This document shows, piece after piece, positions 48,911 through 63,680 of a stretch of 64,000 nt of DNA (its first letter is position 1; each line of letters opens with the position of its first letter). Both the position numbers and the translations under genes were made by a program. Under the pieces are notes generated by a model, which saw nothing but the letters and a program-made list of their open reading frames with translations, made no database searches and was not told where the DNA came from. The DNA is from Shewanella aestuarii. Its GTDB lineage: Bacteria > Pseudomonadota > Gammaproteobacteria > Enterobacterales > Shewanellaceae. Where the stretch lies: the NCBI RefSeq assembly GCF_011765625.1, contig NZ_CP050314.1, forward strand, positions 1 through 64,000, given 5' to 3'.

Positions 48911-48976
48911 CCCCATAGGGAATACAATCGCCCTTTGGGATCATTGTATTCTCTAAAAGCTTTGCTGAGGATACAC
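48911..48976 (+). promoter_or_regulatory. switch-type RNA leader 1
   Basis: Hairpin CCCCATAGGG/CCCTTTGGG. Loop GAATACAAT (48920-48928) is perfectly complementary to ATTGTATTC (48943-48951). That segment can instead pair with GAGGATACA (48967-48975), hiding the ribosome site next to ATG 48977. Confidence 0.75.
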
Positions 48977-49276
48977 ATGAACATTCAACTTTTTATCAAA
49001 TTAGTAGACGCTGCAATAACACTCTGTTGGGCATCAATTAGAAAAGATTTTCCAAATTATGATTCAACATCATTGGAGGCTCTTTTTGTTGAAGTAGTTT
49101 TATTAATGGATCAGTTAACTACTGAGTTTAACAATCACTTTGAAAAACCAAATATTAAGTTTTTTGATGTTATCAATTACAACTTTTATCAGGTTATCAA
49201 TATTTGTGCTTGTAACATGCTTCATATAATCACGCTTAAACAATCCGTTCTTAAAAATTTGCAGTCAGTAAACTAA
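48977..49276 (+). CDS. hypothetical protein, first gene of leader regulon
   Basis: 99 aa, start set by the leader (GAGG 8 bases before ATG). Helical, soluble, Cys-containing end (NICACNML); not recognised. First of the 17 genes with the shared leader design. Confidence 0.6.
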   Translation: MNIQLFIKLVDAAITLCWASIRKDFPNYDSTSLEALFVEVVLLMDQLTTEFNNHFEKPNIKFFDVINYNFYQVINICACNMLHIITLKQSVLKNLQSVN

Positions 49277-49292
49277 ACAACCAATTACCCAA

Positions 49293-49360
49293 CCCCACTA
49301 GGGAACATACATCCCTAGCGGATCTGTGTTCTCTTAAATTTATGTCTTGGAGGACACACC
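49293..49360 (+). promoter_or_regulatory. switch-type RNA leader 2
   Basis: Hairpin CCCACTAGGG/CCCTAGCGG. Loop GAACATA (49303-49309) pairs with TGTGTTC (49325-49331). TGTGTTCTCT (49325-49334) alternatively pairs over 10 bases with GGAGGACACA (49349-49358), covering the full ribosome site. Confidence 0.78.
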
Positions 49361-49453
49361 ATGGAAATCATCATCGTTGCAGCATTAATCGTTCCAGCAT
49401 TAATTATTAACAAAATGATTGTTCAACCACTTATGTGGATTGCATATCGTTAA
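49361..49453 (+). CDS. 30-aa hydrophobic microprotein A
   Basis: Begins MEIIIVAALIVPALIIN and is almost entirely hydrophobic, so a membrane peptide. Has its own leader with GGAGG. A 31-aa paralogue follows at 49593. Size and composition resemble small membrane toxins or regulators; no antisense RNA could be assigned. Confidence 0.6.
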   Translation: MEIIIVAALIVPALIINKMIVQPLMWIAYR

Positions 49454-49501
49454 TTAATTTTTACTTGCCTCACTTAGTTGAACCTTCGGGTTCACCTAAT
49501 T

Positions 49502-49551
49502 GCTGGCTCTCCTATTCGTTTTTACTCATGAAAGCGCATAGGTGAGCCAGC
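49502..49551 (+). other. long hairpin between microprotein genes
   Basis: GCTGGCTC-T-CCTAT (49502-49515) pairs with ATAGG-T-GAGCCAGC (49538-49551), a 13-bp stem with one mismatch. A smaller hairpin, GAACC/GGTTC, precedes it near 49480-49492. It could terminate transcription or control microprotein B. Confidence 0.6.
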
Positions 49552-49592
49552 AGGCTTAGACATTTTTAATTAATTATCTAAGGGTGAAAAAA

Positions 49593-49688
49593 ATGGAAAT
49601 TATTATTATTGCAGCGCTAATCGTTCCAGCATTAATCATTAACCAAATAATTGTTAGACCGTTATTAAACATCGGTTATAACTACTAA
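49593..49688 (+). CDS. 31-aa hydrophobic microprotein B
   Basis: MEIIIIAALIVPALIIN start, about 70% identical to microprotein A. It lacks the switch-type leader: only AAGGGTG precedes the ATG, after the long hairpin. Tandem duplication with diverged control regions. Confidence 0.58.
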   Translation: MEIIIIAALIVPALIINQIIVRPLLNIGYNY

Positions 49689-49763
49689 TTTCGCTGTCAC
49701 AGCGATACAAGCGAAAGCTTGACGGTAAGAGTTTGTTATCGTGAGTGGTCGGTTGGCCACTCG

Positions 49764-50040
49764 ATAAACCTAAATCGATTTAAATTGAGTCGCTTTAGGT
49801 TTATTCAGTTCCACCAATCGTTTTTTTATTCACTTGTCCACTGTACCTTTTTTGGTACTCGTTCATTTGTTTAATAAAACGCATGTCAGCTAAACATGGG
49901 AAACATTAGCGGTTGCACTATTCACGAATATGCAATGACCGGTATAACGTAATTCAAAGCGAATAATGTTATATGAGAGCGATTAAGCTACTTAATCTAC
50001 CCAATTGGGAGACTACTTTCCCCTTTGGGATCAATGTCTT
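49764..50040 (+). repeat. long direct repeat, copy 1
   Basis: 277 bases, about 97% identical to 59322-59599. Starts with a hairpin ATAAACCTAAA/TTTAGGTTTAT. It contains further small stems (GTACC/GGTAC, GCTAA/TTAGC, TTGCA/TGCAA) and runs into the hairpin of a switch-type leader. A more diverged copy is near 48700. Non-coding and conserved, so probably a promoter or structured RNA module placed ahead of gene groups. Confidence 0.8.
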
Positions 50041-50078
50041 TCTTTTGGGTTTAATTACTTTTTGGAAGGACAAATATT
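50000..50078 (+). promoter_or_regulatory. switch-type RNA leader 3 (ssb)
   Basis: Hairpin CCCAATTGGG/CCCTTTGGG. Loop GAGAC (50009-50013) pairs with GTCTT (50036-50040). TGTCTTTC (50035-50042) can pair over 8 bases with GAAGGACA (50065-50072), which includes the GGAAGG ribosome site of ssb. Confidence 0.72.
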
Positions 50079-50642
50079 ATGAACAATCACAATCACACTC
50101 AAAACCAATCTACTCGTCAAAACACAATTCGTTTTACTGGCAATGTTTCTCAAGTTAAACCACTTCAAAATGGCGGCGCTTCGATTTCATTGGCATACAA
50201 CGAAGGAAAAATGGTTAACAACGAATGGCAACAAAGCGACACTCTTTATATGTCGTGTATTGTTCCAGCAAAGTTAAACTTTATTCCGAATATTGGCGAT
50301 AAGATGACGATTGAAGGTTTTCTTGGCTCTGACAATTATCAACCGCAAGGTGGAAAAAAACGTTATGGCGTGAAAATTATTATCAATCAGATCTTAGAAT
50401 ATTCTGAGAAGCAGCAAGCTCCGCAGCAAAACGGTTATCAAAATCGTCCAGCTCCGCAGCAAAATTCTTATCAGCAAGCTCCGCAGCAAAACGGTTACCA
50501 AAATCGTCCAGCTCCGCAGCAAAATTCTTATCAGCAAGCTCCGCAGCAAAACGGTTACCAAAACCGTCCAGCTCCGCAGCAAAATAATCAGGCACCACAA
50601 AACAACTTCCAGCAAGGAAATGGTTTTCGCCAAAATTATTAA
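50079..50642 (+). CDS. ssb: SSB-like single-stranded DNA-binding protein
   Basis: 187 aa. N-terminal OB-fold-like domain (TIRFTGNVSQVKPLQNGGASISLAY ... GDKMTIEGFLGSDNYQPQGGKKRYGVKIIINQI, about 15-105), then a Gln/Asn/Pro tail made of three 20-aa repeats. It ends in FRQNY and lacks the acidic DDDIPF-type tip of bacterial SSBs, so it should not recruit host SSB partners in the usual way. Has its own switch-type leader. Confidence 0.78.
   Translation: MNNHNHTQNQSTRQNTIRFTGNVSQVKPLQNGGASISLAYNEGKMVNNEWQQSDTLYMSCIVPAKLNFIPNIGDKMTIEGFLGSDNYQPQGGKKRYGVKIIINQILEYSEKQQAPQQNGYQNRPAPQQNSYQQAPQQNGYQNRPAPQQNSYQQAPQQNGYQNRPAPQQNNQAPQNNFQQGNGFRQNY
50412..50591 (+). repeat. 60-bp tandem repeat in ssb tail
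   Basis: Three nearly identical copies encoding QQAPQQNGYQNRPAPQQNSY; only single-base differences, so a recent expansion. Confidence 0.88.
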
Positions 50643-50651
50643 TTAATTTCA

Positions 50652-50710
50652 CCCCACAGGGATTTCTATCCCTGCAGGGTAGCGTTCCTGTCTAAATTTT
50701 AAGGAATGCT
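50652..50710 (+). promoter_or_regulatory. switch-type RNA leader 4
   Basis: Hairpin CCCCACAGGG/CCCTGCAGGG. TAGCGTTCC (50680-50688) pairs with GGAATGCTA (50703-50711), a 9-bp stem reaching into the ATG; the loop GGATTTCTA only partly matches (7 of 9 pairs). Confidence 0.68.
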
Positions 50711-51085
50711 ATGAACAAAATTAAACAACTATTACTGAATTCTAACACACAGGAGGGATTTAACATTGGTCTATTTTTACTCTTAATTGCTTTGCAAAAT
50801 GAGCTAAATGGATTGATTTTATTCATAATCTTGCTTTTCTTCGTTATCGTTATGATTTCTCACTTTGGTGCGATAATTTTAGCTTTTGATGAAAAGAAAA
50901 CGAGTTTGTTAAAGTTTGGATTGATAACATACAAAACACTATTGCTCGACTTGTCTTTAGCTATTTTTAGCTTGATCTTGTCTTACAAATCATTTCTTCT
51001 TCTTTCATTTGGAGTCGGAATTGCAATTTGTTACTTGGCGATTATCTGGTCAGTTTTTGAACTTGAACAGAATTGTGACTTTTGA
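50711..51085 (+). CDS. hypothetical membrane protein
   Basis: 124 aa with about four hydrophobic segments (e.g. IGLFLLLIALQNELNGLILF, IILLFFVIVMISHFGAIIL). Not recognised. Start fixed by leader 4. Confidence 0.62.
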   Translation: MNKIKQLLLNSNTQEGFNIGLFLLLIALQNELNGLILFIILLFFVIVMISHFGAIILAFDEKKTSLLKFGLITYKTLLLDLSLAIFSLILSYKSFLLLSFGVGIAICYLAIIWSVFELEQNCDF

Positions 51086-51129
51086 TTGTTTATTAACCTA
51101 ATGTTATAATCAAATCATGGAATAATGAT

Positions 51130-51276
51130 ATGAGCCCACATATGTTCACTGAATCAGTAAATTATTGGATGCCACTTGTAGCGGTAAGCTTTGCGTTTGT
51201 GGTGTGTTTTGGAATGATTACGATATTCATTTTGAAGCAAAAACAAGAAGAACGAAAAGTTACCGAAACAAAATAG
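51130..51276 (+). CDS. 48-aa single-TM protein
   Basis: ATG 51130. The peptide has one membrane span (WMPLVAVSFAFVVCFGMITIFI) and a charged tail (LKQKQEERKVTETK). No switch-type leader and only a poor ribosome site; plausible but unproven. Confidence 0.45.
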   Translation: MSPHMFTESVNYWMPLVAVSFAFVVCFGMITIFILKQKQEERKVTETK

Positions 51277-51293
51277 CAACCGACCAAACCTAA

Positions 51294-51349
51294 CCCTTGA
51301 GGGACACTCCCTCTATGGGATTGTGTTCCTCTAAATTTGGAGAAACACA
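51294..51349 (+). promoter_or_regulatory. switch-type RNA leader 5
   Basis: Hairpin CCCTTGAGGG/CCCTCTATGGG (imperfect). Loop GGGACAC (51301-51307) pairs with GTGTTCC (51323-51329). TTGTGTT (51321-51327) pairs with AACACAA (51344-51350), extended by CTC/GAG over the ribosome site. Confidence 0.74.
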
Positions 51350-51415
51350 ATGAAAAACCTATCAATTAAAGCGCATTTAAACGACCTTGCATTTATTGGA
51401 GGCTGTTATGAATAA
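51350..51415 (+). CDS. 21-aa leader peptide overlapping next gene
   Basis: ATG 51350 opens MKNLSIKAHLNDLAFIGGCYE, stopping at TAA 51413-51415 inside the next gene, whose GGAGG and ATG lie within this frame. Arrangement of a translational-coupling peptide. It is the direct target of leader 5. Confidence 0.55.
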   Translation: MKNLSIKAHLNDLAFIGGCYE

Positions 51416-51614: not shown

Positions 51615-51676
51615 CCCAAGCGGGACACTAACCCCGCATGGGATTGGTGTATCTCGCAGTCCTGGAGGACACACCA
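51615..51676 (+). promoter_or_regulatory. switch-type RNA leader 6
   Basis: Hairpin CCCAAGCGGG/CCCGCATGGG. Loop ACACTAA (51625-51631) and start-flank ACACCAA (51671-51677) both pair with TTGGTGT (51644-51650): loop with one G-U, start flank perfectly. Confidence 0.8.
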
Positions 51677-52315
51677 ATGCGTAAATCAACAGCAAAAAAA
51701 GTTAGCCAACCATTTTGGTTTAACTCTCAAACCATTCATCATAAATTAGATAAAGACATCATTTCCGCCATGAAAAATGGTAATGAAAAGTGTTCTCTTC
51801 TCATGATGATGGACCCGCACTATGAACCGAAGAAACAGATCTACCATATAGAATGGAAAAATGATGATGTGGAGATGCTTTTAGAAGGCATGTTCATTCG
51901 CAGTTTAGAAATTCTACGCAATGCCGATCCAAGTAATGAACTCTTTAAAGATGAAGTTGTTTGGCAAAGCACCCCTCAGTTCGCTGAGATAGCAAGACAT
52001 CTTGGTTATGACGCTAGCGTTATACGCCATGAAGTTAAGCTAATTATGAAACGATATGGCAAGTCCAGTGAAATGGACTCACTGCTTGAGTTCCATCATT
52101 GGGTAGATCTATTTGCTCAAATGTTCAAAGAGCAAGTTAATGCAAAAGTAGCCACCAATTGCAGCTTTAAATTTCTCATATCACTTTGTGAAGGGAATTA
52201 TGAGCTGAAGGTGTTATTGCAACAAATAGGCGAACTTTTAGATGATCTTCACTTAGAAGGTTATTCTCGCGCAGCTTTACTTGAGTCTTTAACTGAAACT
52301 ATCAATTCTTATTAA
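51677..52315 (+). CDS. hypothetical protein upstream of cobS
   Basis: 212 aa from ATG 51677 (a GTG-type start upstream would lie inside the leader). Helical and soluble; contains SLLMMMDPHYEPKKQIYHIEW and a region reminiscent of a helix-turn-helix (FAEIARHLGYDASVIRHEVKLIMK). Possible DNA-binding role, low certainty. Confidence 0.6.
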   Translation: MRKSTAKKVSQPFWFNSQTIHHKLDKDIISAMKNGNEKCSLLMMMDPHYEPKKQIYHIEWKNDDVEMLLEGMFIRSLEILRNADPSNELFKDEVVWQSTPQFAEIARHLGYDASVIRHEVKLIMKRYGKSSEMDSLLEFHHWVDLFAQMFKEQVNAKVATNCSFKFLISLCEGNYELKVLLQQIGELLDDLHLEGYSRAALLESLTETINSY

Positions 52316-52317
52316 AA

Positions 52318-52390
52318 CCCTATGGGCACAATTATCCCATAGGGGGCTGATTGTGCCTTCAAAATACTAAACGTCTTTGGAGGACGCATT
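52318..52390 (+). promoter_or_regulatory. switch-type RNA leader 7 (cobS)
   Basis: Perfect hairpin CCCTATGGG/CCCATAGGG. Loop GGCACAAT (52325-52332) is perfectly complementary to ATTGTGCC (52350-52357). TGTGCC can instead pair with GG(A)CGCA (52382-52388) just before ATG. Almost identical to leader 16. Confidence 0.8.
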
Positions 52391-53440
52391 ATGTCAGTAC
52401 AACAAATCAATACAGCAGTAACTACTACAACAACTTCAATCGATTACTCAGAAATGGAAAAAGTGGCAGCAAGTGTGCTTTTCCCTGAAATCTTTGAAGG
52501 TTCGAACGTCATGCTTCAACGTCGTAAACATCGTCATCCAGACTGCATTGAGAGCAATCCAATGTATGTACCGGATGAAGAGAATACTAAAATTGCTTTG
52601 GTATGGTTAATGGCGAAGGATCAAATGCTTGCTTTAGGCTTACAGGGACACACCGGCACTGGTAAAACAGAGTTAGTGATGTACCTTGCAGATAGACTCA
52701 ATCTACCTTTATATATTGTGAAAACTCATGCCCGCATGAATCCACAAGATTTAGAGGGAAGTTATGTTCTTGATAACGAAAGCGGTCAAACCGTTACCCG
52801 AAAAGAATATGGTCCAGCTGCAAAAGCGTATATAAATGGCGGCATTTTATTGCTTGATGAGATGGATAAAGCGTCTGAAGAACTGACATCAGCGATGCAT
52901 TTGCTGGTGGAAGGGAAACCATGGCCTTTAGAAATGTTTAAAGAAACATTGTTTAGAAATAAGCACTGTTTCTGTGTAGGTACTGCTAATACATATGGGT
53001 CTGGTCATGATGAGCGTTATATCTCATCTAACCAATTAGATCAGGCGTTTCTTTCACGATTTATGTGGATAGAAACAGCCTATCCAACCACAATCGTTGA
53101 AGCAAAAATACTCGAAAGAGTTGGCGGTAAATTACCTGTTAATGTCAGAAATGATGCAATCAGGCTAGCAAATGCGTTTCGAGATGCGGCGCTAGGCGTT
53201 AATCGTGATGGAGATGTTGAAGATCCAATTCAATGCATATTCTCTACACGGGTATTAGTTGCTTGGATTTATTATATACAAGCGTTTGGTAAGTTTCGCA
53301 CGCTAAAGCAATCTCTTGAAGCTGTGTTCTTACGTTCAGTAAGTCCAGAGGATAAAGAAATTGCACATCATATTGTTAATAAAATTTACGGAGATGACAT
53401 TAACTTGTCATTAGGCGAAATTTTATCAAAAAAGTCTTAA
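52391..53440 (+). CDS. cobS: CobS-like MoxR-type AAA+ ATPase
   Basis: 349 aa. AAA+ core with Walker A GHTGTGKTEL (near 92) and Walker B GGILLLDEMD (near 155), sensor GTANTYGSG and arginine-finger-like SRFMW. MoxR/CobS ATPases pair with VWA proteins as remodelling chaperones; the DUF3150 and VWA genes follow here as in SXT-like elements. Ends KKS at TAA 53438, directly after the heptamer A AAA AAG, which could direct -1 frameshifting into the next frame. Confidence 0.88.
   Translation: MSVQQINTAVTTTTTSIDYSEMEKVAASVLFPEIFEGSNVMLQRRKHRHPDCIESNPMYVPDEENTKIALVWLMAKDQMLALGLQGHTGTGKTELVMYLADRLNLPLYIVKTHARMNPQDLEGSYVLDNESGQTVTRKEYGPAAKAYINGGILLLDEMDKASEELTSAMHLLVEGKPWPLEMFKETLFRNKHCFCVGTANTYGSGHDERYISSNQLDQAFLSRFMWIETAYPTTIVEAKILERVGGKLPVNVRNDAIRLANAFRDAALGVNRDGDVEDPIQCIFSTRVLVAWIYYIQAFGKFRTLKQSLEAVFLRSVSPEDKEIAHHIVNKIYGDDINLSLGEILSKKS
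53428..53434 (+). other. A AAA AAG slippery heptamer at cobS end
   Basis: In cobS frame the sequence reads tcA AAA AAG TCT TAA. A -1 slip gives AAA AAA GTC TTA ACA CCT and continues without a stop into the frame of 53485-54015. The same heptamer is used by dnaX. A missing A in the run would give the same appearance. Confidence 0.5.
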
Positions 53441-54030: not shown

Positions 54031-54099
54031 CCCATAAGGGCGTACAAACTTCCTTTTGGGGTTAGTGCGCTCTTTTTTTTTGTTCTTGGAGGACAAATT
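54031..54099 (+). promoter_or_regulatory. switch-type RNA leader 8 (DUF3150)
   Basis: Hairpin CCCATAAGG/CCTTTTGGG. GGGCGTAC (54038-54045) pairs with GTGCGCTC (54065-54072), and this stem is followed by nine Ts, so here it could act as an intrinsic terminator. The ribosome site is held by a local hairpin TTTGTTC/GGACAAA (54079-54097). Confidence 0.7.
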
Positions 54100-55524
54100 A
54101 TGAACGCACTAACTAAAACTAACTCAACAACTATCAATTCAGCTGATTTATGCTCACGCCTTGAACAACTTGAACAGGGTGTTTGTGTGGTAAATATCGT
54201 ATCTAGCGGAGCTTGCGGAGAGAAATGTTTACCAAAAGTCAAAGTTGAGCTTGATGGTCAACTGCAAGATTCAGATAGCATTAAAGGCTCAAAAATTCGC
54301 TGGTTCCCAAAAGAGCCATTGAATTTCGTTAATAAGAGTAAGCAACAAATCGCAAGAGTATTGAACGCTTATGGTGTTCGATGGGGAGATATGACAATCG
54401 TGCCATTGGCTCGTTTAGACGATCTTCAGTCAGAAATCGAGGCTATTCAAATTGAATGGCAACGTAATCTGGATGATATGTTGTTGAACTACGACTCACT
54501 TATTTACGACTGGATAATGCAAAACCAGGATGTAGCAGACATCATGCGCCGCTACACAATGGATAAAAATGAATTTGGTGGCAGATTCAAATTGAAGATG
54601 TTACCGCCAGTTGCTTTCAAACCTTTGATTGATGAAGGTGATGAAGAAGCGGGTGAAGAGCTTGCTAACTCAATGCTTGATAATCTTTATGAAGAAGTCG
54701 CAAAGATGGCCGGTGATGTATATGACCGCTCATTTTTCATTAAAGATGCTAATGGCCACAAAATTCCTCGCACTAAGGCAAATAGACGTATCAAAGATGC
54801 GTTTAAGACCTTAATCGGGAAATTAAATGGCTTATCGTTTCTAGATAGTAATATCGAAAAAGTGATAGCAGAAACAAATCGTGTACTTGATTCCATGCCA
54901 AAAGAGGGATGGATTGAGAATAATGATTTGGCTGCATTAGCGCGTTGGACTTTAGTGTTATCAAGCGTGGATAGCCTCAAGGCTCATATAGACGACAATG
55001 TTGTTGAATATGAGGAAGAGGTTATTGTTGATGACTTTGGTGTATTGGGTGAAGTAATTAGTAATAATTTAGATGAAGATCTAAATCCTAATCAACCAAC
55101 TCAAGTCGCTCAGTTATCAGATGAAATATCAGATACCGGCTTTGACAATGAATTTGACGAACAACAGTCTGAAGATAATTCAGTTGTTGATGTTGAAGAA
55201 GTTGACGCTGAAATATCAGATACCAGCTTTGACAATGAATTTGACGAACAACAGTCTGAAGATAATTCAGTTGTTGATGTTGAAGAAGTTGACGCTGAAA
55301 TATCAGATACCGGCTTTGACAATGAATTTGACGACCAACAGCCTGAAGATAATTCAGTTGTTGATGTTGAAGAAGTTGAAGAAGAAGTCGAAGTATCAGA
55401 AGTAGAAGAGCCGAGCGCATGCATGGTTGACGACACTGACTTTATCGATTTTGACCAAACTGAACATTATTCAGAGGTCGAAGATGAAGTTGTCGAAGAT
55501 GATGATTTTGGCTTTGGATTCTAA
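54100..55524 (+). CDS. DUF3150-type protein with acidic repeats
   Basis: 474 aa. The N-terminal 310 residues match the DUF3150 proteins that accompany cobS and VWA genes on SXT-like elements (CGEKCLPKVKVELDGQLQ...IRWFPKEPLNF). The C-terminal 150 residues are strongly acidic with three 29-aa repeats and end in DDDFGFGF. Likely partner of the CobS ATPase; biochemical role unknown. Confidence 0.75.
   Translation: MNALTKTNSTTINSADLCSRLEQLEQGVCVVNIVSSGACGEKCLPKVKVELDGQLQDSDSIKGSKIRWFPKEPLNFVNKSKQQIARVLNAYGVRWGDMTIVPLARLDDLQSEIEAIQIEWQRNLDDMLLNYDSLIYDWIMQNQDVADIMRRYTMDKNEFGGRFKLKMLPPVAFKPLIDEGDEEAGEELANSMLDNLYEEVAKMAGDVYDRSFFIKDANGHKIPRTKANRRIKDAFKTLIGKLNGLSFLDSNIEKVIAETNRVLDSMPKEGWIENNDLAALARWTLVLSSVDSLKAHIDDNVVEYEEEVIVDDFGVLGEVISNNLDEDLNPNQPTQVAQLSDEISDTGFDNEFDEQQSEDNSVVDVEEVDAEISDTSFDNEFDEQQSEDNSVVDVEEVDAEISDTGFDNEFDDQQPEDNSVVDVEEVEEEVEVSEVEEPSACMVDDTDFIDFDQTEHYSEVEDEVVEDDDFGFGF
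55123..55383 (+). repeat. 87-bp tandem repeat in DUF3150 gene
   Basis: Three copies encoding units that begin EISDT(G/S)FDNEFD and contain EDNSVVDVEEV. The copies differ at only a few bases, so recent expansion. Confidence 0.88.
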
Positions 55525-55592
55525 CCCCATAGGGCGTACACACTCCCTATGGGAACTGTGTGCGCCTTCAATTACGTTCTTGGAGGACGCAC
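55525..55592 (+). promoter_or_regulatory. switch-type RNA leader 9 (VWA)
   Basis: Perfect hairpin CCCATAGGG/CCCTATGGG. Loop GGCGTACACA (55533-55542) pairs over 10 bases (one G-U) with TGTGTGCGCC (55557-55566). TGTGCG..CC can pair with GGACGCACA (55585-55593), which includes the A of ATG. Confidence 0.82.
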
Positions 55593-57581
55593 ATGGCTAC
55601 ACAACAACAATTACTTAGAAAGTTTAAAAATATATCTAGAGTATTAACTCGTTGCGCTAACATGAAAATCACTTTTAGTGGCAATACGGCTTGGCATGAC
55701 GATGGCGCTATAAATCTACCTTTGGGAGATTTTAGTGACGATGATTTTGTCACGATGAGTATTGGCTATTGTGACCATGAATTAGGTCATGAAAACTACA
55801 CAAAAGGCGAATTTTATGAAAGAGCATTTAAGGAGTCTTCTTTTTTAAAGGGCTTGCTAAATTCCTTAGATGACGCACATCAAGAAGCACGTTTGATGGA
55901 TGACTTTAAGGGATGTAAAAACTCTTTACGTAAATTAGTCGTTTTATGTAAAGACAAAGGTATATTTGTAAAACCAAGCATCGAGCACAGCGAAGCACTC
56001 ATTTTGAAAGCATGGGTGTTATACGGTGCGAGATTATCCAATGATCAACCACTTGATGAGTATTACCGAATTGCTGATGCACTGTTGCAGCAAAAGTTTG
56101 GTAATGATTTTTATCAAGCAATACACAAAATATTTAATCCAACTGTGATGCGAAGTATTAATAACACTGAAAAGTGTTATGACACCGCAAAGCAGATATA
56201 CGATTTATTTATGGCGTGGGTTGATGAACAAGAAAGTGATGACGATTCTGACGATGCCGATGGCTCTGAAGATAGCGATGATACTCAAAGCGACTCAAAT
56301 GATGCCGATGGCTCTGAAGATAGCGATGATACTCAAAGCGACTCAAATGATGCCGATGGCTCTGAAGATAGCGATGATACTCAAAGCGACTCAGACGATG
56401 CCGATGGCTCTGAAGATAGCGATGATACTCAAAGCGACTCAAATGATGCCGATGGCTCTGAAGATAGCGATGATACTCAAAGCGACTCAAATGATGCCGA
56501 TGGCTCTGAAGATAGCGATGATACTCAAAGCAACTCAGACGATGCCGATGGCTCTGAAGATAGCGATGATACTCAAAGCGACTCAAATGATGCTGATGGC
56601 TCAGAAGATAGCGATGACTCAACAACCAATGACACAACACCCTCTGATAGTAATGAGCAATCAAAAGGTGCTAGCGATTCGTCAATGCAACCAGTTGGTA
56701 AAAAATCAGAAATTCTTGATTCACTAGATGATGACAGTTTTGATTTTCATGCTCAATTACGCGAACAAATTGCTGAAATGGCAAAAGACTATAACGAGTC
56801 TTTTATCGAGCCTTTGAAGGCAATCGGTCGTAATCCTGTATCAATCGATGAATACGGTTTTTGCAACGTAGGTGACACACACAGATTAGTTTCAAGTTTG
56901 AAAAATCCGCTCAAGCGAATTTTTCATGATGAAAATTACTGTAAAAAGTCGCTCGATAAAAAAGGGGCTACGATCAGTTCGAGTCGATTATCAACTGTGG
57001 TTACAGGCAATAAACGCATATTTGAAAGAGAGTCAATTGGACGCTCACCGAATGCGGCTATTAGCCTGCTAGTTGATAAATCAGGTTCTATGTGCAACTC
57101 AGATATGCGTATGGCTAACAGCGTTAGCTATGCAATGAGTTTAGCGCTTGACGGTATCAAAGGTGTAAAAAATATGGTGGGTTATTATCCATCGTATGAA
57201 GTTGATGAGGATGGAAGGTATATCAATAATCCAAACTTAGAAATTGTTAAAACTTTCGATAAAAAACCTAAATCAGCTGATTTTAATATCTCTGGTTCAG
57301 GTGGCACACCCACAGCTGCGGCCGTAATGACTGCGACATCTTATCTCGTTAATCGGAGTGAACCTAGAAAATTACTTTTTGTAATTACCGATGGTGAACC
57401 CGATAACATCGAAGAATTAAGAATAGCAATACAAGAGGCAAACGCTGTTGGTGTAAAAGTTTTTGGGATAGGCATTTGTCACCAAGTACATGGGTTTGAA
57501 GATGCAGATTTTGAGGTAATTCAAACTGAGCATGACTTAGTAGAAGCACTCACCAAAGGCTTAAAACACGCTTTTAAATAA
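55593..57581 (+). CDS. CobT-like VWA-domain protein
   Basis: 662 aa from ATG 55593. N-terminal metallopeptidase-like region (GYCDHELGHENYTKGEFYER, LDDAHQEARLMDDF), a long Asp/Ser-rich linker of 16-aa repeats (about 220-345), and a C-terminal VWA domain with MIDAS VDKSGSM, a Thr in GGTPTAAA and VITDGEPDN. Works with MoxR-type ATPases such as CobS; the chelatase CobT has the same acidic linker-VWA plan. Client unknown. Confidence 0.83.
   Translation: MATQQQLLRKFKNISRVLTRCANMKITFSGNTAWHDDGAINLPLGDFSDDDFVTMSIGYCDHELGHENYTKGEFYERAFKESSFLKGLLNSLDDAHQEARLMDDFKGCKNSLRKLVVLCKDKGIFVKPSIEHSEALILKAWVLYGARLSNDQPLDEYYRIADALLQQKFGNDFYQAIHKIFNPTVMRSINNTEKCYDTAKQIYDLFMAWVDEQESDDDSDDADGSEDSDDTQSDSNDADGSEDSDDTQSDSNDADGSEDSDDTQSDSDDADGSEDSDDTQSDSNDADGSEDSDDTQSDSNDADGSEDSDDTQSNSDDADGSEDSDDTQSDSNDADGSEDSDDSTTNDTTPSDSNEQSKGASDSSMQPVGKKSEILDSLDDDSFDFHAQLREQIAEMAKDYNESFIEPLKAIGRNPVSIDEYGFCNVGDTHRLVSSLKNPLKRIFHDENYCKKSLDKKGATISSSRLSTVVTGNKRIFERESIGRSPNAAISLLVDKSGSMCNSDMRMANSVSYAMSLALDGIKGVKNMVGYYPSYEVDEDGRYINNPNLEIVKTFDKKPKSADFNISGSGGTPTAAAVMTATSYLVNRSEPRKLLFVITDGEPDNIEELRIAIQEANAVGVKVFGIGICHQVHGFEDADFEVIQTEHDLVEALTKGLKHAFK
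56253..56620 (+). repeat. 48-bp tandem repeat in VWA gene
   Basis: Seven full copies and one partial copy of a unit encoding DADGSEDSDDTQSDSN. Near-identical at DNA level. It forms the acidic linker between the N-terminal and VWA domains. Confidence 0.9.
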
Positions 57582-57596: not shown

Positions 57597-57657
57597 CCCA
57601 AGGGGTACACAAATCCCTTGGGGATTAGTGTGCTCCAAACGTCCTGGAGGGCACACT
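57597..57657 (+). promoter_or_regulatory. switch-type RNA leader 10
   Basis: Perfect hairpin CCCAAGGG/CCCTTGGG. Loop region 57602-57614 pairs with ATTAGTGTGCTCC (57624-57636) with one mismatch and two G-U. TAGTGTGC (57626-57633) pairs perfectly with GCACACTA (57651-57658), which includes the A of ATG. Confidence 0.82.
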
Positions 57658-57777
57658 ATGAATAATACAATCACAGAAATTAGAGCGAGTGGAATGGTCA
57701 CCGTTTACGAAATTCGTAACGGTATCAAGGTACTTATTGGGGCTTCATGGAAATGGGGACCTCTTCTAACACGGTAA
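57658..57777 (+). CDS. 39-aa small protein
   Basis: Starts MNNTITEIRASGMVTVYEIR, ends WKWGPLLTR. Not recognised. Strongly supported as a real gene by its complete leader and GGAGG spacing. Confidence 0.6.
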   Translation: MNNTITEIRASGMVTVYEIRNGIKVLIGASWKWGPLLTR

Positions 57778-59288: not shown

Positions 59289-59321
59289 CTGTGGATTGCA
59301 GAGGTTAGATTAACCTCTGCA

Positions 59322-59599
59322 ATAAACCTAAATCGATTTAAATTGAGTCGCTTTAGGTTTATTCAGTTCCACCAATCGTTTTTTTTATTCACTTGTCCAC
59401 TGTACCTTTTTTGGTACTCGTTCATTTGTTTAATAAAACGCATGTCAGCTAAACATGGGAAACATTAGCGGTTGCACTATTCACGAATATGCAATGACCG
59501 GTATAACGATATTCAAAGCGAATAATGTTATATGAGAGCGATTAAGCTACTTAACCTACCCAACTGGGAGACTAATTATCCCATTGGGATCAATGTCTT
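59322..59599 (+). repeat. long direct repeat, copy 2
   Basis: 278 bases, about 97% identical to 49764-50040, including the internal stems and the entry into a switch-type leader. Differences: one T in a run, GATATTC for GTAATTC, and bases inside the leader where pairing partners also differ. It introduces the ferredoxin gene group. Confidence 0.8.
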
Positions 59600-59623
59600 C
59601 CTATACTTGTCTGGAGGACATCT
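59559..59623 (+). promoter_or_regulatory. switch-type RNA leader 11 (ferredoxin)
   Basis: Hairpin CCCAACTGGG/CCCATTGGG. Loop GGGAGAC (59566-59572) pairs with GTCTTCC (59595-59601). ATGTCTTCC (59593-59601) pairs over 9 bases with GGAGGACAT (59613-59621), hiding the whole ribosome site. Confidence 0.82.
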
Positions 59624-59839
59624 ATGAATAAATTACACATCAATCAACACATTGAACTCAAAACGCTCACCAATCTGATTAAATTCGATTGCAAAAGCGG
59701 TTTTTGTGGCCAATGTAAATCAAAACTTATAAGCGGCAAAGTAAAACTCATTCAACAACCTATAGCAATTTTGGAAAAGGATGAGATTTTAGCTTGTTGC
59801 TGTGTTTCGGTATCACCCATTGTCATACAACAAATTTAA
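59624..59839 (+). CDS. YfaE-like [2Fe-2S] ferredoxin
   Basis: 71 aa. Ferredoxin cluster ligands CKSGFCGQC (C-x4-C-x2-C) and a fourth Cys in ILACCCVS, the same plan and length as E. coli YfaE (CRSGYCGSC ... ILPCCC), which reduces the cofactor of class Ia ribonucleotide reductase. No reductase gene is in the window, so it may support the host enzyme to raise dNTP supply during transfer (inference). Confidence 0.78.
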   Translation: MNKLHINQHIELKTLTNLIKFDCKSGFCGQCKSKLISGKVKLIQQPIAILEKDEILACCCVSVSPIVIQQI

Positions 59840-60254: not shown

Positions 60255-60314
60255 CCCATAAGGGCACTTACCCCTTACGGGATTTGTGTCCTTTAAATTT
60301 TGGAGAGACACAAC
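60255..60314 (+). promoter_or_regulatory. switch-type RNA leader 12
   Basis: Hairpin CCCATAAGG/CCTTACGGG. Loop GGGCAC pairs with GTGTCC (one G-U). TTGTGTC pairs perfectly with GACACAA next to ATG 60315. Nearly the same as leader 13. Confidence 0.74.
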
Positions 60315-60680
60315 ATGACTACACTAATTGAACTCAAACCACTTAAAGAACAAAGCTTAGATGCTCAGTTGATGCAATTGACTGGTGATGGATTTGGTTA
60401 TTCTTCTTTTCATAATGAAGGAGATACAACTAAATTAACCCCTTCAGGGATTCTTGTTCATAAAAAAAGCGGTATGCGTTTTAAGGTGCCTTTACCCATT
60501 TTTACGCTTGCAGAGTATAACCAACAGGCTCAAAAGGATGTTTGGGATACAGAGCGAACAGATTGGAAAGATTGGCCAAAGATACGACATCAATTCATAG
60601 GAAAGCGTACTTTTCTCGGTAACGAGAATGGGGCGACAGTTCTGTTTATTGAAGATCAACATTTTGTTATAGAAAACTAA
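60315..60680 (+). CDS. hypothetical protein
   Basis: 121 aa from ATG 60315. Soluble, Trp-rich patch (DVWDTERTDWKDWPK). Not recognised. Confidence 0.6.
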   Translation: MTTLIELKPLKEQSLDAQLMQLTGDGFGYSSFHNEGDTTKLTPSGILVHKKSGMRFKVPLPIFTLAEYNQQAQKDVWDTERTDWKDWPKIRHQFIGKRTFLGNENGATVLFIEDQHFVIEN

Positions 60681-60739
60681 CCCATAAGGGCACTTAACCC
60701 TTACGGGATTTGTGTCCTTTAATTTTGGAGAGACACACT
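60681..60739 (+). promoter_or_regulatory. switch-type RNA leader 13
   Basis: Almost identical to leader 12 (CCCATAAGG hairpin, GGGCAC loop, TGTGTC/GACACA closing the ribosome site before ATG 60740). Confidence 0.74.
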
Positions 60740-61288
60740 ATGTTAAACGCAACAGAAATCATCAAAAAAATGACTGAAATTTCAAACAGCTTTGATATGC
60801 CAAAAGCATATAAAGAAGATTTGAATATCGATTTTTCACTCATCAAGCAAGCTGAAACTCAATCAAACTCAACTGAATATGTCTGGATATTACGGGAAAA
60901 CGGAACCTGCCTAATACCCTTGTATTGTGGCGCTAATCCGGTCCACGTATCCGCTTGGGAAAGTAGTGACTACCACTATTTTCATATCGCGGGTGCAAAT
61001 GTAAATCAGATAAATTTTAAGTTCGCCTTATCTTTGGCAAATGAGTTTCCATTTAATCCAACAAAGGTGACTTCTATGTCGCAATTGATGGCTGATATGG
61101 ATCGCTTATTGTCGGGTTCAATTGTCCAATCGTCAGCATTTGAAGTAGTTCATTTAACCACTTCACTCAGTTCTTGGAGTGATTGGCAAAAATGGTTTGC
61201 ATCAACTAAAAACACGATGATGGCAGAATTTATGATAAAGGCAATTAAGCAACACAAGTTGCTGATTGACATCAAGCTAGCTGCTTAA
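60740..61288 (+). CDS. hypothetical protein
   Basis: 182 aa. Soluble; contains HYFHIAGANVNQINF and DWQKWFASTKN. Not recognised. Start fixed by the leader. Confidence 0.6.
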   Translation: MLNATEIIKKMTEISNSFDMPKAYKEDLNIDFSLIKQAETQSNSTEYVWILRENGTCLIPLYCGANPVHVSAWESSDYHYFHIAGANVNQINFKFALSLANEFPFNPTKVTSMSQLMADMDRLLSGSIVQSSAFEVVHLTTSLSSWSDWQKWFASTKNTMMAEFMIKAIKQHKLLIDIKLAA

Positions 61289-61289
61289 A

Positions 61290-61354
61290 CCCCATAAGGG
61301 CGTAACTTCCCTATGGGGATGATTGCGCCTGCAATTTCGTCTTGGAGGACAATC
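61290..61354 (+). promoter_or_regulatory. switch-type RNA leader 14
   Basis: Hairpin CCCCATAAGGG/CCCTATGGGG. Loop GGCGTAA pairs with TTGCGCC. ATGATTG pairs with CAATCAT, which contains AT of the start codon at 61355. Confidence 0.78.
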
Positions 61355-61579
61355 ATGAACACTCAACAACAATCGATTTATAACAACGCTATTGCGGTGT
61401 ATTTAACGTTAACTGAAGGTGCTCAACAGTCACTAATGGAAGTCTATGAAACTATAGAGGATTACGTGGTTGAAGGCGGTACGCTTGAAATTCAAGCGGT
61501 TGTCAATGTTGAGTACCAACATCTATCTTGGCGCCAAATTCAAGATGGTATTCAGCATTTAGTTAATTCACAAATTTGA
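61355..61579 (+). CDS. 74-aa hypothetical protein
   Basis: Acidic, helical (AQQSLMEVYETIEDYVVEGG); not recognised. A GGAGG site 7 bases before the ATG is enclosed by the leader stem. Confidence 0.58.
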   Translation: MNTQQQSIYNNAIAVYLTLTEGAQQSLMEVYETIEDYVVEGGTLEIQAVVNVEYQHLSWRQIQDGIQHLVNSQI

Positions 61580-61619
61580 AAAAGGCGTTAGTTAACCAAT
61601 AAACAAACGCTAAACCTAT

Positions 61620-61696
61620 CCTGACGGGATCACATACCCGCTAGGGAGGTTGTGATCCACAACATTTAATTTATTAATAATTTGGAGTAACAACTT
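61620..61696 (+). promoter_or_regulatory. switch-type RNA leader 15
   Basis: Hairpin CCTGACGGG/CCCGCTAGG. Loop GGATCACA is perfectly complementary over 8 bases to TGTGATCC. The overlapping GTTGT pairs with ACAAC just before ATG 61697. The hairpin arms differ from other leaders yet still pair. Confidence 0.78.
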
Positions 61697-62089
61697 ATGG
61701 GCTTTTTCTCATTTAAAACATGCGATAGCAAAGAATCGATTGCAAACATTCATAGCAATCACCCCAATGCAGGTAGAACCGTCTATTTGCTTCAACCTAA
61801 TGGTGAGCGTCCCATTCAAGAGACCGCTTATCAGGGATATGGCGATTTCGGTCATGTCGATGCGTATGCATGGCTAGCTAAGTTTAACGCGACAGATGTG
61901 GAGCATTTGGATTTAGTTAAGGATGCTGAAACGCTGCGACATATTGGGATAGCGATGACATTTGAAGAACCAGAAAAAATCAAATATCCGCTGAAATTTT
62001 CATTTAATGAGAAAGCGGTATATGAATTACTGGCTGCATCAGAAGATTGTGAATATCAAGGCTATTTCTACCATGGAATAGCAATTTAA
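61697..62089 (+). CDS. hypothetical protein
   Basis: 130 aa. MGFFSFKTCDSKESIANIHS start, aromatic residues (YQGYGDFGHVDAYAWLAKFN). Not recognised; similar accessory proteins are common on large plasmids. Confidence 0.6.
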   Translation: MGFFSFKTCDSKESIANIHSNHPNAGRTVYLLQPNGERPIQETAYQGYGDFGHVDAYAWLAKFNATDVEHLDLVKDAETLRHIGIAMTFEEPEKIKYPLKFSFNEKAVYELLAASEDCEYQGYFYHGIAI

Positions 62090-62102
62090 TTTAATTAACA
62101 CA

Positions 62103-62175
62103 CCCCTATGGGCGCAATTATCCCATAGGGGCTGATTGTGCCTTCAAAATACTAAACGTCTTTGGAGGACGCATT
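62103..62175 (+). promoter_or_regulatory. switch-type RNA leader 16
   Basis: Near copy of leader 7 (cobS): CCCTATGGG/CCCATAGGG. Here the loop is GGCGCAAT instead of GGCACAAT; it still pairs with ATTGTGCC through a G-U. Confidence 0.8.
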
Positions 62176-62685
62176 ATGTTAACAGCACATCAAGTAAACC
62201 AGCAGAAAAAGTATGACGAATTTCGAGCCAGTATACTAAAAGAGTCACCAACGCCTTGTAATTTAGAGGTAGGTGATTACGTCACATTTACGAATGATTA
62301 TGGCGTATTCTTTAGGCGACCAAGGCAAGTTATTGGTTTTGATTTTGCTGACGATTCCAATCGGTTTATCTATACCGAAGGTGATGCTTACTGGTTTCCT
62401 AGCTCACCGGAACAGCTGCACAAGGTTGAAAAAACACCAACAGGCTGTTTGCTTGTACGTGAATTAACCTTTTTACCAATGTATGAGTTTGAAAATCAAT
62501 TATACGAGCAACAAGGTTGGTGCCGCTTAGTGATTGAGAGCTCATTACATTGTGTTTGGTGTAATGCCGAGAGGTTAGAGTTAGTAACGTACTGCGAAGG
62601 AGATGTCATTTGGGCCACTGCTTTGAATGAAGACATGTATGAATCTGAAATTAAGCGAACCATTGAATTTTTCAATGAATGCTAA
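62176..62685 (+). CDS. hypothetical protein
   Basis: 169 aa. Beta-rich with TFTNDYGVFFRRPRQVIGFD, typical of small plasmid accessory proteins. Not recognised. The next gene starts 12 bases later without its own leader, so the two are probably co-translated. Confidence 0.6.
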   Translation: MLTAHQVNQQKKYDEFRASILKESPTPCNLEVGDYVTFTNDYGVFFRRPRQVIGFDFADDSNRFIYTEGDAYWFPSSPEQLHKVEKTPTGCLLVRELTFLPMYEFENQLYEQQGWCRLVIESSLHCVWCNAERLELVTYCEGDVIWATALNEDMYESEIKRTIEFFNEC

Positions 62686-62697
62686 GGAAGGTGATAT

Positions 62698-63573
62698 ATG
62701 TTTAATTCTAGTGTGGTGTCTTATCCAGATAGGGGGCATTTTGGCAATTCCCAGTATAGAGGTAACACAACCGGAAAAATCATCATTGATTTGATTGATA
62801 ACTTTTTACCTTGCGATGGATTATTTGTAGATCCAGCTGTAGGTGGAGGGACGACCATTGATGTTGTAAATCATTTATGCATTGCAAATCGATTTGCTGG
62901 CTTTGATTTACATAGTGGTTTTAATTTAATTCGTGATGATTTAACCAGTGCTGTTGGACAACAAGCCGATCTCATCTTCTTTCATCCTCCCTATGGTGGC
63001 ATGATACATTACAGCGGGAATATGTGGGGCGAACCGCATAAAGATGATCTCAGTCGCATGAGTGAATATGACTTTGAGCAAGCATTAAAACTTGCCCTAG
63101 TGAATATTTCTGATGCAACAAAAGCTGGTGGTCACTACGCTGTATTAATAGGCAATCAAAGAAAGAAAGGGCGCTATTTGAACTGGTCATCAATGACAGA
63201 GCAATTGGCACCAGATCCTTTGGTTGAAGAGATTATAAAATGCCAACACAACTGTGTTAGTGATAATCGCCAATATGCAAAACCACTCATACGCATTAAT
63301 CATGAAAAGCTGCTTATTTTTAAAAAAGGTCAAAATACTAATGCAATAACAGACCTTGAGGGTATCCTCAACGGTATGAGCGAGACGTTTATGGCCAACA
63401 TTTTGGTCATGTTAAAACGCCTGTTTCAGTGTCGAGACTGGACGCAAAAAGAGTTATTTGACACGTTAGCGCATTTAGCCAAAAGCAGTCCCTATGAACT
63501 GTTTCCGGCAATTGACTATTTATTAAAAACCGAGCATTTCAAAATGATTGATGGCCGATACACTTTGGCCTAA
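62698..63573 (+). CDS. orphan DNA methyltransferase
   Basis: 291 aa. Motif I VDPAVGGGTTIDV (near 48) and motif IV HPPYGG (near 97), in the order of an N4/N6 amino-methyltransferase; His replaces the usual Asn/Asp-Pro-Pro-Tyr. Entry PDRGHFGNSQYRGN is typical of plasmid/phage methylases. SD AAGGAAGG precedes ATG. The C-terminal 100 residues are an unrelated helical domain. Likely protects element DNA from host restriction (inference). Confidence 0.78.
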   Translation: MFNSSVVSYPDRGHFGNSQYRGNTTGKIIIDLIDNFLPCDGLFVDPAVGGGTTIDVVNHLCIANRFAGFDLHSGFNLIRDDLTSAVGQQADLIFFHPPYGGMIHYSGNMWGEPHKDDLSRMSEYDFEQALKLALVNISDATKAGGHYAVLIGNQRKKGRYLNWSSMTEQLAPDPLVEEIIKCQHNCVSDNRQYAKPLIRINHEKLLIFKKGQNTNAITDLEGILNGMSETFMANILVMLKRLFQCRDWTQKELFDTLAHLAKSSPYELFPAIDYLLKTEHFKMIDGRYTLA

Positions 63574-63625
63574 AAATCACAACAAGATAATCAATGTTGA
63601 GTTCACTCAATAATATTATCAACTA

Positions 63626-63680
63626 CCCAATGGGACATTTATCCCATTGGGGTAAGTGTTCCTAAATCGAGGACACACTT
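63626..63680 (+). promoter_or_regulatory. switch-type RNA leader 17
   Basis: Perfect hairpin CCCAATGGG/CCCATTGGG. The loop pairs with GTAAGTGTTCC over 11 bases (three G-U). TAAGTGT pairs perfectly with ACACTTA, which contains the A of ATG 63681. Confidence 0.8.

Follow-up and report, generated by a model that had tools for sequence, protein, structure and literature searches.

Leaders and genes of the run

The window analyzed here is a 64,000-nucleotide stretch of Shewanella aestuarii DNA. Over 15 kb of it, on what is likely a conjugative plasmid, 17 genes each open with the same type of short RNA leader. All 17 leaders proposed in the first-pass annotation are present where it placed them, and its worked examples (leaders 1, 6, 9, and 15) are letter-exact. 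It described each leader as a CCC..GGG hairpin (H1), a segment A right after it, and a typical GGAGG ribosome site whose flank S reaches the ATG, with A complementary to both the hairpin loop (L) and S. This complementarity is seen in most leaders, the exceptions being leaders 3 and 4, where L:A is weak, and leader 8, where A:S is. The ribosome site is less uniform than described, as an exact GGAGG occurs in 9 of 17 leaders and the others have GGAGA, GAGGA, GGAAGG, AAGGAA, or GGAGT.

All leaders lie on the + strand, with coordinates running from the 5′ hairpin arm (arm 1) to the ATG, as stated for leader 1. Leader 1 (48912..48979; L GGGAAUACAAU, A AUUGUAUUCUC, S GAGGAUACA) precedes a 99-aa ORF, and leader 2 (49294..49363; L GGGAACAUA, A UGUGUUCUC, S GGAGGACACA) a 30-aa ORF. 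Leader 3 (50000..50081), before an SSB-like gene, has a clear A:S pairing (GUCUUUCU:GGAAGGAC), and leader 4 (50651..50713; A AGCGUUCCU, S AGGAAUGCU) opens a 124-aa ORF. The 21-codon ORF behind leader 5 (51294..51352; L GGGACAC, A GUGUUCC, S GGAGAAACACAAU) overlaps the start of the following gene, and the 212-aa product behind leader 6 (51615..51679; L GGGACACUAA, A UUGGUGUAUC, S GGACACACCAAU) has an HTH match below its cut-off. Leaders 7 (52318..52393; L GGGCACAAUUA, A UGAUUGUGCCU, S GGAGGACGCA), 8 (54031..54102; L AGGGCGUACA, A UAGUGCGCUCU), and 9 (55526..55595; L GGGCGUACACA, A UGUGUGCGCC, S GGAGGACGCACA) precede a MoxR/CobS-like AAA gene, a DUF3150 gene, and a CobT/VWA gene, respectively. 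Leader 10 (57597..57660; L GGGUACACAA, A UUAGUGUGCUC, S GGGCACACUA) serves a 39-aa ORF and leader 11 (59559..59626; L GGGAGAC, A AUGUCUUCC, S GGAGGACAU) a 71-aa ORF that clusters with ferredoxin-like proteins from sister plasmids. Leader 12 (60255..60317; L AGGGCAC, A GUGUCCU, S GAGAGACACAA; 121-aa ORF) has a near copy in leader 13 (60681..60742; 182-aa ORF). Behind these lie leader 14 (61290..61357; L AGGGCGUAA, A UUGCGCCU, S pairing CAAUCAU:AUGAUUG; 74-aa ORF), leader 15 (61619..61699; L GGAUCACA, A UGUGAUCC, S pairing ACAACUU:AGGUUGU; 130-aa ORF), leader 16 (62103..62178; 169-aa ORF), which is a near copy of leader 7, and leader 17 (63626..63683; L GGGACAUUUA, A UAAGUGUUCC, S GGACACACUUA; 87-aa ORF).

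Three leaders follow a head segment, also on the + strand. The segments before leaders 3 (49763..50000, repeat copy 2) and 11 (59321..59559, repeat copy 3) are 98% identical, while the one before leader 1 (48697..48910) is a diverged copy sharing with them a core that reads CGCATG..AGCTAA..CATG..TAGCGG in the three-copy alignment. BLAST connects this diverged copy to the other two only via plasmid pSx1. The head segment before leader 1 is likely a promoter/operator.

Gene-specific pairing and covariation

Pairing energies of each leader's own partners were compared with those of partners swapped among leaders over 20000 permutations. For the 17 window leaders, L:A averaged −11.8 kcal/mol for own and −7.6 kcal/mol for swapped partners (z −6.9), A:S −14.3 and −10.9 kcal/mol (z −6.0), and the hairpin arms reached z −8.0, with 0/20000 permutations as good in each case; in the control pairings, z was −0.7 for L:S and +1.5 for arm1:S. 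Because the earlier reader had chosen these leaders partly for their pairing, pSx1 provides a cleaner test: the sole criteria for picking its 12 leaders were a hairpin, a ribosome site, and a start codon with ORF, and both L:A and A:S again gave 0/20000. Across 65 leaders the signal rose to z −16.2 for L:A, −12.9 for A:S, and −18.9 for the arms (each 0/20000), with controls at −1.5 and 0.2. Another 77 leaders from outside the training set of our covariance model gave z −15.3 for L:A, whose complementarity is no part of that model, and z −16.2 for A:S, where this value and that of the arms are helped by model-based selection. Among 19 orthologous DUF3577 leaders, L:A gave 3/20000 and A:S 5/20000. 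Within single plasmids the signal is uneven, with A:S at 1820/20000 in P. spongiae and the arm1:S control at 60/20000 in A. mediterranea.

In the alignment columns, both sides change in 16 of 20 pairs, and the covariation score is 0.402 compared with 0.182 for shuffled and at most 0.157 for slid pairs, in an alignment that had been fitted to the model. Mismatches of the G-T kind outnumber A-C in the arms (30:9) and in L:A (60:19, swapped 30:14), an excess that fits pairing in the mRNA strand, and A:S has no such excess (44:41, swapped 45:37). The constant letters are mainly CCC/GGG and the ribosome site; the CCC..GGG arm ends vary least, central arm positions vary freely, and L, A, and S differ from gene to gene. 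As complementarities between leader segments, the three pairings are shown by these comparisons to exist, to be gene-specific, and to covary. The earlier picture of one covarying leader per gene, in which A:S and L:A compete for a shared A, is borne out (exceptions are leaders 3, 4, and 8), as is the recruitment of the GGG of the 5′ arm into L:A.

Predicted folds and a putative translational switch

RNAfold predicted H1 together with A:S in 16 of 17 window leaders and an L:A fold, its minimum-energy form, in leader 8. In the set of 65, the A:S form was the minimum-energy form in 58. With arm 1 blocked, 40 of 65 leaders flipped to L:A, compared with 192 of 1300 chimeras, and the other 25 kept A:S; in the window alone, 13 of 17 flipped, compared with 57 of 272 chimeras. 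Both this default and the flip in most leaders, obtained by blocking the first six bases of arm 1, are folding predictions only. A begins so near the hairpin that, by geometry, H1 and L:A could probably not both be complete.

These folds suggest a switch, which the sequence supports well. H1 would leave A free to mask the gene's own ribosome site through A:S (OFF). If arm 1 were barred from pairing, the loop and the arm GGG would take A, and L:A would free the site (ON). We infer that cells use this flip. The least secure step is its trigger, which may be a host-conserved factor, such as the ribosome, an RNA chaperone, or similar, engaging arm 1; we look to the host because no element-encoded protein is common to all element regions compared. 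A strong trigger would be needed, since mean predicted energies are −29.3 kcal/mol for OFF and −20.8 kcal/mol for ON, a gap of approximately 8.5 kcal/mol. The mean probability of an unpaired ribosome site was 0.22 without a block and reached just 0.45 with arm 1 blocked, in part owing to a small hairpin that can form again locally around the site. Taken as a whole, we consider this switch probable, with moderate confidence. It is still the best fit for the leaders, as the first-pass annotation had proposed, judged from sequence.

The same energy gap would also suit a static attenuator or insulator, in which H1 and A:S fix a low level of translation for each gene and stop read-through, with L:A as an intermediate or by-product. 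A:S dominates the minimum-energy forms, persists from 10 to 50 °C, and no trigger was found. However, a fixed attenuator has no need of L:A, and the gene-specificity of L:A in its own right, in both the 65 and the 77 leaders, speaks against this explanation, which we regard as rather unlikely. We give slightly less weight to an operator for a single RNA-binding protein that locks or opens the leader at H1. The constancy of the arm ends and the combination of a common scaffold with private codes would suit a shared effector, but the middle of the arms is free to vary, no protein is common to all 13 element regions (these are partial, with a maximum of 9/13), and, in the plasmid's own genome, ProQ, CsrA, and cold-shock proteins are encoded on the chromosome alone. 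A host protein acting on H1 would merge with the switch described above.

A ribosome finishing the upstream gene could cover arm 1, the segment whose blocking flips the fold, induce L:A, and so permit translation of the next gene. The upstream stop lies within 12 nt in 16 of 63 leaders and within 40 nt in 29 more. In 18 of 63, including leaders 1 and 11, the nearest stop is more than 40 nt away, and none was found for 2 of 65, including leader 3; such coupling therefore cannot be universal, and as a general explanation it is improbable. Far less credible are an RNA thermometer or a transcription attenuator, even though the leaders are structured over their ribosome sites. Of 65 leaders, 59 are predicted to have at least 5 expected A:S pairs at 10 °C and 56 still do at 50 °C, and + strand terminator-like sites overlap only leaders 4, 15, and 16, with none at the other 14. 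Across the region, both strands hold 22 such sites (G+C-rich stem and T run) where 13.5 are expected. It is equally hard to credit the leaders as functionless inverted or direct repeats whose similarity is maintained by template switching or recombination. Near copies exist (leaders 7/16 and 12/13), as do duplicate head segments (leaders 3 and 11), but the leaders precede a ribosome site and start codon on one strand per run, are kept before the same gene class across families and base compositions, and show the G-T excess in their arms.

Distribution and genes served

The first-pass annotation considered one plasmid, and the leader family spans much of the Proteobacteria. Seven other plasmid records (Shewanella, Pseudoalteromonas, Alteromonas) have the same leader in their corresponding runs. 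A covariance model was run on 394 genomes of the order, of which 41 matched, the own genome counted. The model (R2) missed leaders 4 and 15, and in the S. aestuarii genome it gave no further match at E ≤ 0.01 among the 150 of 939 candidates scored. In 5/5 whole plasmid records the matches form one run of ~9–16 kb on a single strand, bar reverse matches on the same hairpins, and an element holds up to ~20 leaders with private codes. Given how many Proteobacteria have it upstream of genes on plasmids and likely mobile elements, the leader is likely a widespread, apparently undescribed on/off switch.

Judged by family match only, the leaders serve what look like genes for maintenance or establishment rather than for pili, and many of these genes match no family. 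In the window they include the SSB-like and AAA/DUF3150/VWA genes; elsewhere they include ArdC, PF03230 anti-restriction, RadC, RecT/exonuclease, and DUF3577 genes. The leader lies directly upstream of 20/20 DUF3577 genes fetched (Pasteurellaceae, Gilliamella, Collimonas), and outside the class Gammaproteobacteria it precedes an ArdC gene. A DUF3577 RNA motif upstream of DUF3577 genes was reportedly described by Weinberg et al. 2017, and our leaders share this placement at all 20 loci. Rfam, which may not hold the motif, gave no match to it at 3 loci (E ≤ 10) or at 17 of the 20 loci (gathering score), and our literature search found no paper naming it. The 17 leaders likely belong to one new RNA family of cis-acting translational switches.

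The private L/A/S codes probably keep neighboring leaders on one transcript from cross-pairing. More tentatively, the leaders may form one translational regulon of conjugative elements, address-coded and spread across the Proteobacteria, in which a host-conserved factor would read the shared hairpin and the private three-part code of each gene would let the establishment program open jointly without mispairing between leaders on one transcript. If so, dozens of poorly known host-survival genes of these elements (anti-restriction, SSB, recombination, and AAA/VWA systems) in Pasteurellaceae, Shewanella, Pseudoalteromonas, Alteromonas, Enterobacter, Collimonas, and others would be under one post-transcriptional switch. 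The leader would serve as a sequence tag for finding such genes and would give radC RNA a context. It would also be an unusual example from nature in which one gene run carries many copies of a single RNA switch, each with its private code, and these copies are open to direct reporter tests.

Relation to known systems

In riboswitch expression platforms (anti-SD/anti-anti-SD), the exclusive pairings of one segment set access to the ribosome site. Unlike riboswitches, the leaders have no conserved sequence resembling a ligand pocket or aptamer core, and no Rfam riboswitch matched at gathering score. In a repZ-type pseudoknot, base pairing between a hairpin loop and a segment further downstream frees the ribosome site; in the leaders, loop:A pairing is real by the own-versus-swapped comparison and release of the site is predicted only. 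For the IncI-alpha repZ switch of ColIb-P9, the available text reports that translation of the plasmid gene needs pairing upstream of its ribosome site, and that a single gene is controlled by a pseudoknot and an antisense RNA (PMC8383071). By comparison with that account, the leaders are many per element and privately coded, and their L:A form competes with the hairpin. Both the leaders and EGeRS1/2 of the pLS20 plasmid family place a common control sequence before several establishment genes or operons (for the leaders, by family match only), including ardC in the available EGeRS description. According to that description, EGeRS is found in Bacillus, EGeRS1 is 420–750 bp long and sequence-conserved among copies, and its authors had no evidence of action as ssDNA or RNA; the gene-specific three-way pairing of the leaders does not figure in it.

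No Rfam 15 family reached gathering score over the window leaders, and, measured against Rfam 15, the first-pass annotation was right to assign the leader itself to no named RNA family. We add that radC RNA (RF01754, listed in PMC2864571), a multi-copy cis-regulatory candidate of Proteobacteria, adjoins such leaders before mobile-element genes in Collimonas (L099), in a further genome (G920), and in an Enterobacter ludwigii plasmid (L104). With membership set at a covariance-model match of at least 40 bits, no radC match appeared in window positions 46000–64000 (E ≤ 5), in the whole window (gathering score), or in the own genome, and of 28 genomes that match the leader model just one has it. 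We considered the leader as part of the radC structure, but 11–54 nt separate the two in 8 of 9 pairs (radC/leader positions 3918/3930 and 6905/6960 in L099; 1643/1664 in L101; 1643/1667 in L102; 1587/1602 in L103; 12123/12159, 8557/8569, and 7646/7662 in L104). Only in the ninth pair, in L099, does a radC match (2284–2430) overlap a leader (at 2403), through its low-confidence 3′ part. With a 149-nt model and another structure, radC RNA is a module distinct from the leader. On the tentative regulon reading, leaders stand alone inside operons and behind head modules, which are radC RNA in Collimonas and Enterobacter and a ~240-nt repeat in Shewanella-type plasmids.

Leader architecture and gene-specific pairing

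All 17 leaders that the first-pass annotation had placed in the window are present, and the observation is confirmed and much widened. Each reads, in order, as arm 1 (CCC-n-GGG), loop L, arm 2 (CCC-n-GGG), segment A, a spacer, the ribosome site with flank S, and the ATG. The window's 17 had been picked with pairing in mind; 48 further leaders from other plasmids were gathered by a script whose sole requirements were a hairpin, a ribosome site, and a start codon with an ORF behind it. Identical copies, minus-strand candidates, one false match in stretch L011 and one in the window are omitted from the resulting 65. RNAfold returned the CCC..GGG hairpin (H1) and A:S in most of these and L:A in a few.

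The first-pass annotation had also claimed that L:A and A:S pairing holds while the bases differ between genes. We compared the duplex energy of own partners with that of partners swapped among leaders, using 20000 permutations. The claim held for the window (n = 17; z -6.9 for L:A, -6.0 for A:S, and -8.0 for the arms; 0/20000 each), with control pairings at z -0.7 (L:S) and 1.5 (arm1:S). For all 65 leaders, z was -16.2 for L:A, -12.9 for A:S, and -18.9 for the arms, with controls at -1.5 and 0.2. Within single plasmids outside the window the signal is uneven: L:A and A:S reached 0/20000 and 0/20000 in pSx1, 0/20000 and 12/20000 in pKC-Na-R1, 331/20000 and 193/20000 in P. donghaensis (5 leaders), 44/20000 and 1820/20000 in P. 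spongiae (7 leaders), and 243/20000 and 1/20000 in A. mediterranea (8 leaders), where the arm1:S control also gave 60/20000.

A hold-out set was drawn from 83 plus-strand matches to the leader model. Two over-long matches were omitted, one of them a leader whose spacer holds a long repeat, the other probably no leader; of the 81 entered, three identical copies and one without arms were dropped. The remaining 77 gave z -15.3 for L:A, -16.2 for A:S, and -18.3 for the arms (controls -1.5 and 1.0), in a selection that favors the arms and A:S, not L:A. Orthologous DUF3577 leaders gave 3/20000 for L:A and 5/20000 for A:S (n = 19 of 20, since those of L082 and L083 are identical).

MAFFT alignments A1, A2, and A3, each of many leaders, came out of register, and no consensus structure emerged from RNAalifold on A1. 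Alignment A4, of seven same-length leaders, yielded model R1 and then R2, with 64 sequences and 20 pairs. The covariation claimed for the leaders is borne out in the alignment fitted to the model, where both sides change in 16 of 20 pairs. The covariation score there was 0.402 versus 0.182 (sd 0.011) when shuffled and at most 0.157 when slid, these controls, like those for pairing, being permutation and slide rather than tree-aware. G-T and A-C mismatches were counted in 58 leaders (L009 and L011 omitted), with a seed in 47 for L:A and 54 for A:S. G-T outnumbered A-C by 30:9 in the arms and by 60:19 in L:A (swapped 30:14); A:S showed no G-T excess, at 44:41 (swapped 45:37).

A candidate fourth segment around the ribosome site (GTC..GGAGGAC) gave a pairing z of 4.6 in 56 of the 65 leaders, the nine without GGAG/GGAA being omitted, and 2.5 in the window. 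Since z was only -1.3 to 1.9 inside individual other plasmids, we keep this segment as an optional part of the plan. Some leaders of L008-L014 and the window carry a mini-hairpin GTC..GGAG..GAC (or GCC..GGC, CTC..GAG) in the spacer before the ribosome site, which would hold that site in its loop.

A predicted translational switch

Sequence comparison and folding predictions support a reading of the leaders as translational switches, in which A:S would hide the ribosome site (OFF) and L:A would free it (ON). Free folding gave the OFF form in 58 of 65 leaders, and mean energies were -29.3 for OFF and -20.8 for ON. When bases 1–6 of arm 1 were blocked, L:A formed without A:S in 40/65 leaders versus 192/1300 chimeras of mismatched leader halves, and in 13/17 window leaders versus 57/272. 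A variant counting local hairpins as A:S pointed in the same direction (22/65 versus 98/1300). The chance of an unpaired ribosome site rose only from 0.22 to 0.45 upon the block, partly because a local hairpin can form around the site. Because H1 is transcribed ahead of A and S, the ON form would need an event that opens H1.

What might open H1 was considered from several sides. An upstream ribosome could do so in some leaders, though not in all, because the nearest upstream stop codon lies at most 12 nt away in 16/63, 13–40 nt away in 29/63, and farther in 18/63 (values for 63 of the 65 leaders). It is these last 18, more than 40 nt away, on which we reject universal ribosome coupling. An RNA thermometer was likewise rejected, as temperature barely alters the predicted pairing, and so was a reading of the leaders as terminators. 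No protein is common to all 13 element regions compared, which are partial. Contig C2, which the window begins, encodes no ProQ, CsrA or cold-shock factor; the genome's own copies are chromosomal. On these two grounds we tentatively favor a host-conserved factor as the trigger.

Rfam placed no family over the window's leaders at gathering or relaxed thresholds, and our search of open-access literature, judged from search listings, found no description of this leader. By Rfam the family is new, and its predicted mechanism is of the known anti-SD switch kind. It may overlap with the DUF3577 motif, which is reportedly named in a 2017 study.

Distribution of the leaders

The covariance-model search proposed in the first-pass annotation was carried out with R2, which recovers 15 of the 17 leaders in their own genome and, among the best 150 of 939 candidates scored, matches nothing else there at E <= 0.01. 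Five complete plasmid records each carry their matches in one run of about 9–16 kb on a single strand, except for opposite-strand matches on the same hairpins. At least 41/394 genomes of the order sample (at least 24/114 genera) match at E <= 0.01, and, at E <= 0.001 and with the own genome counted, at least 23/369 of the class sample and 12/299 of the phylum sample. These are lower bounds, as only the best 12 to 16 candidates per genome were scored under stricter filters, and they include near-threshold single matches that were checked in part. Three of the phylum sample's 12 matching genomes lie outside the class; L073 has a clear leader 5' of a gene with ArdC domains, and the match in L075 is doubtful. 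Among named genomes, a leader match lies directly 5' of a DUF3577 relative in 20/20 loci, 18 in genera that we take from their names to be Pasteurellaceae, one in Gilliamella, and one in Collimonas.

Genes served by the leaders

Leader matches precede 137 ORFs, and five further sites lack an ORF of at least 25 codons. A family scan covered 88 of the 137 proteins, many of which match no family. Among the matches listed are five RadC-like proteins, four with DUF3150, three each with DUF3577 (STY4534 ICE replication), an ArdC N-terminal domain, and CobT/VWA, two each with DUF3560, PF03230 antirestriction, SSB, AAA_5, and Fer2, and one each with RecT, YqaJ, and SNF2. No leader precedes the traU-like, traN-like, UvrD-type helicase, or Toprim/DUF7146 genes in the clusters compared.

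The CobT/VWA gene contains eight near-identical 48-base in-frame repeats (window 56253-56620) that form an aspartate/serine-rich linker, and the SSB-like and DUF3150 genes have in-frame repeats too. Behind leader 5 is a 21-codon ORF (MKNLSIKAHLNDLAFIGGCYE; window 51350-51417) that at its end overlaps the beginning of the following gene. A near-identical peptide follows a leader in the same-genus genome L022, and this arrangement suggests that ORF and following gene may be coupled in translation.

radC RNA and probable head segments

Literature considered alongside the leader includes PMC2864571, which covers radC RNA and STAXI, and PMC11109978, PMC8708921, and PMC8383071. We found four copies of radC RNA (RF01754) in the Collimonas stretch L099 (234-370, 2284-2430, 3771-3918, and 6767-6905), three in genome G920, one of them under the cut-off, and four in the Enterobacter ludwigii stretch L104 (5570-5712, 7504-7646, 8415-8557, and 11974-12123). 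A leader match overlaps the end of radC RNA or lies within 54 nt 3' of it for 3/4, 3/3, and 3/4 copies, respectively, one of those in L104 being weak (E 0.18). radC RNA is a module separate from the leader, because the remaining L104 leader matches have none 5' of them and it was not found in 27/28 genomes with a leader-model match. It probably forms an operon head, and leaders of this type may account for part of the radC RNA context.

The window has three intergenic segments directly 5' of leader 1 (48697-48910), leader 3 (49763-50000), and leader 11 (59321-59559). The second and third are 98% identical; the first is diverged and shares their core. Homologs occur at three places in pSx1/pHD6416, with a short one in pKC-Na-R1. 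The segments do not match radC RNA, and they too are likely heads of operons. The sole riboswitch matches, Glutamine-II at 16.9 bits (cut-off 33) over segments 2 and 3, were judged to be chance.

Plasmid setting

The 231-kb contig C2, whose first 64 kb make up the window, belongs to a 4.47-Mb genome of three contigs. Genes for traU-like and traN-like proteins and a UvrD-type helicase precede the leader run and have counterparts in two annotated plasmids of Shewanella xiamenensis, pSx1 and pHD6416-NDM. A comparison with 72,556 plasmid records gave seven Shewanella plasmids as the only close DNA matches to the run. On both counts we take C2 to be, most likely, a conjugative plasmid from Shewanella or close kin. 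Position in pKC-Na-R1, judged by the relaxase genes, lends no support to the idea that the run exists because it lies in a leading region beside oriT: there the mobI and MOBH relaxase genes lie at 39.8–43.8 kb and the leaders at about 114–126 kb.

Ahead of the traU/traN-like genes, a predicted 3277-aa protein with many cysteine-containing repeats (29273-39106) has relatives in the A. mediterranea, P. spongiae, and S. xiamenensis regions. A 367-aa protein on the minus strand (14313-15416) looks like a plasmid-borne DNA polymerase sliding clamp, and a gene of pKC-Na-R1 bears the annotation polymerase III beta subunit. Farther along C2, at about 73.9–81.6 kb (stretch L005, 10864-18556), tandem copies of ORFs presumably encode an ISCR-like transposase, a tet-type efflux protein, and the repressor of the latter. 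A HEARO RNA (103.4 bits; window 20232-20448) lies directly 5' of ORF 20455-21741, which by appearance we take to encode an IscB-type HNH protein.
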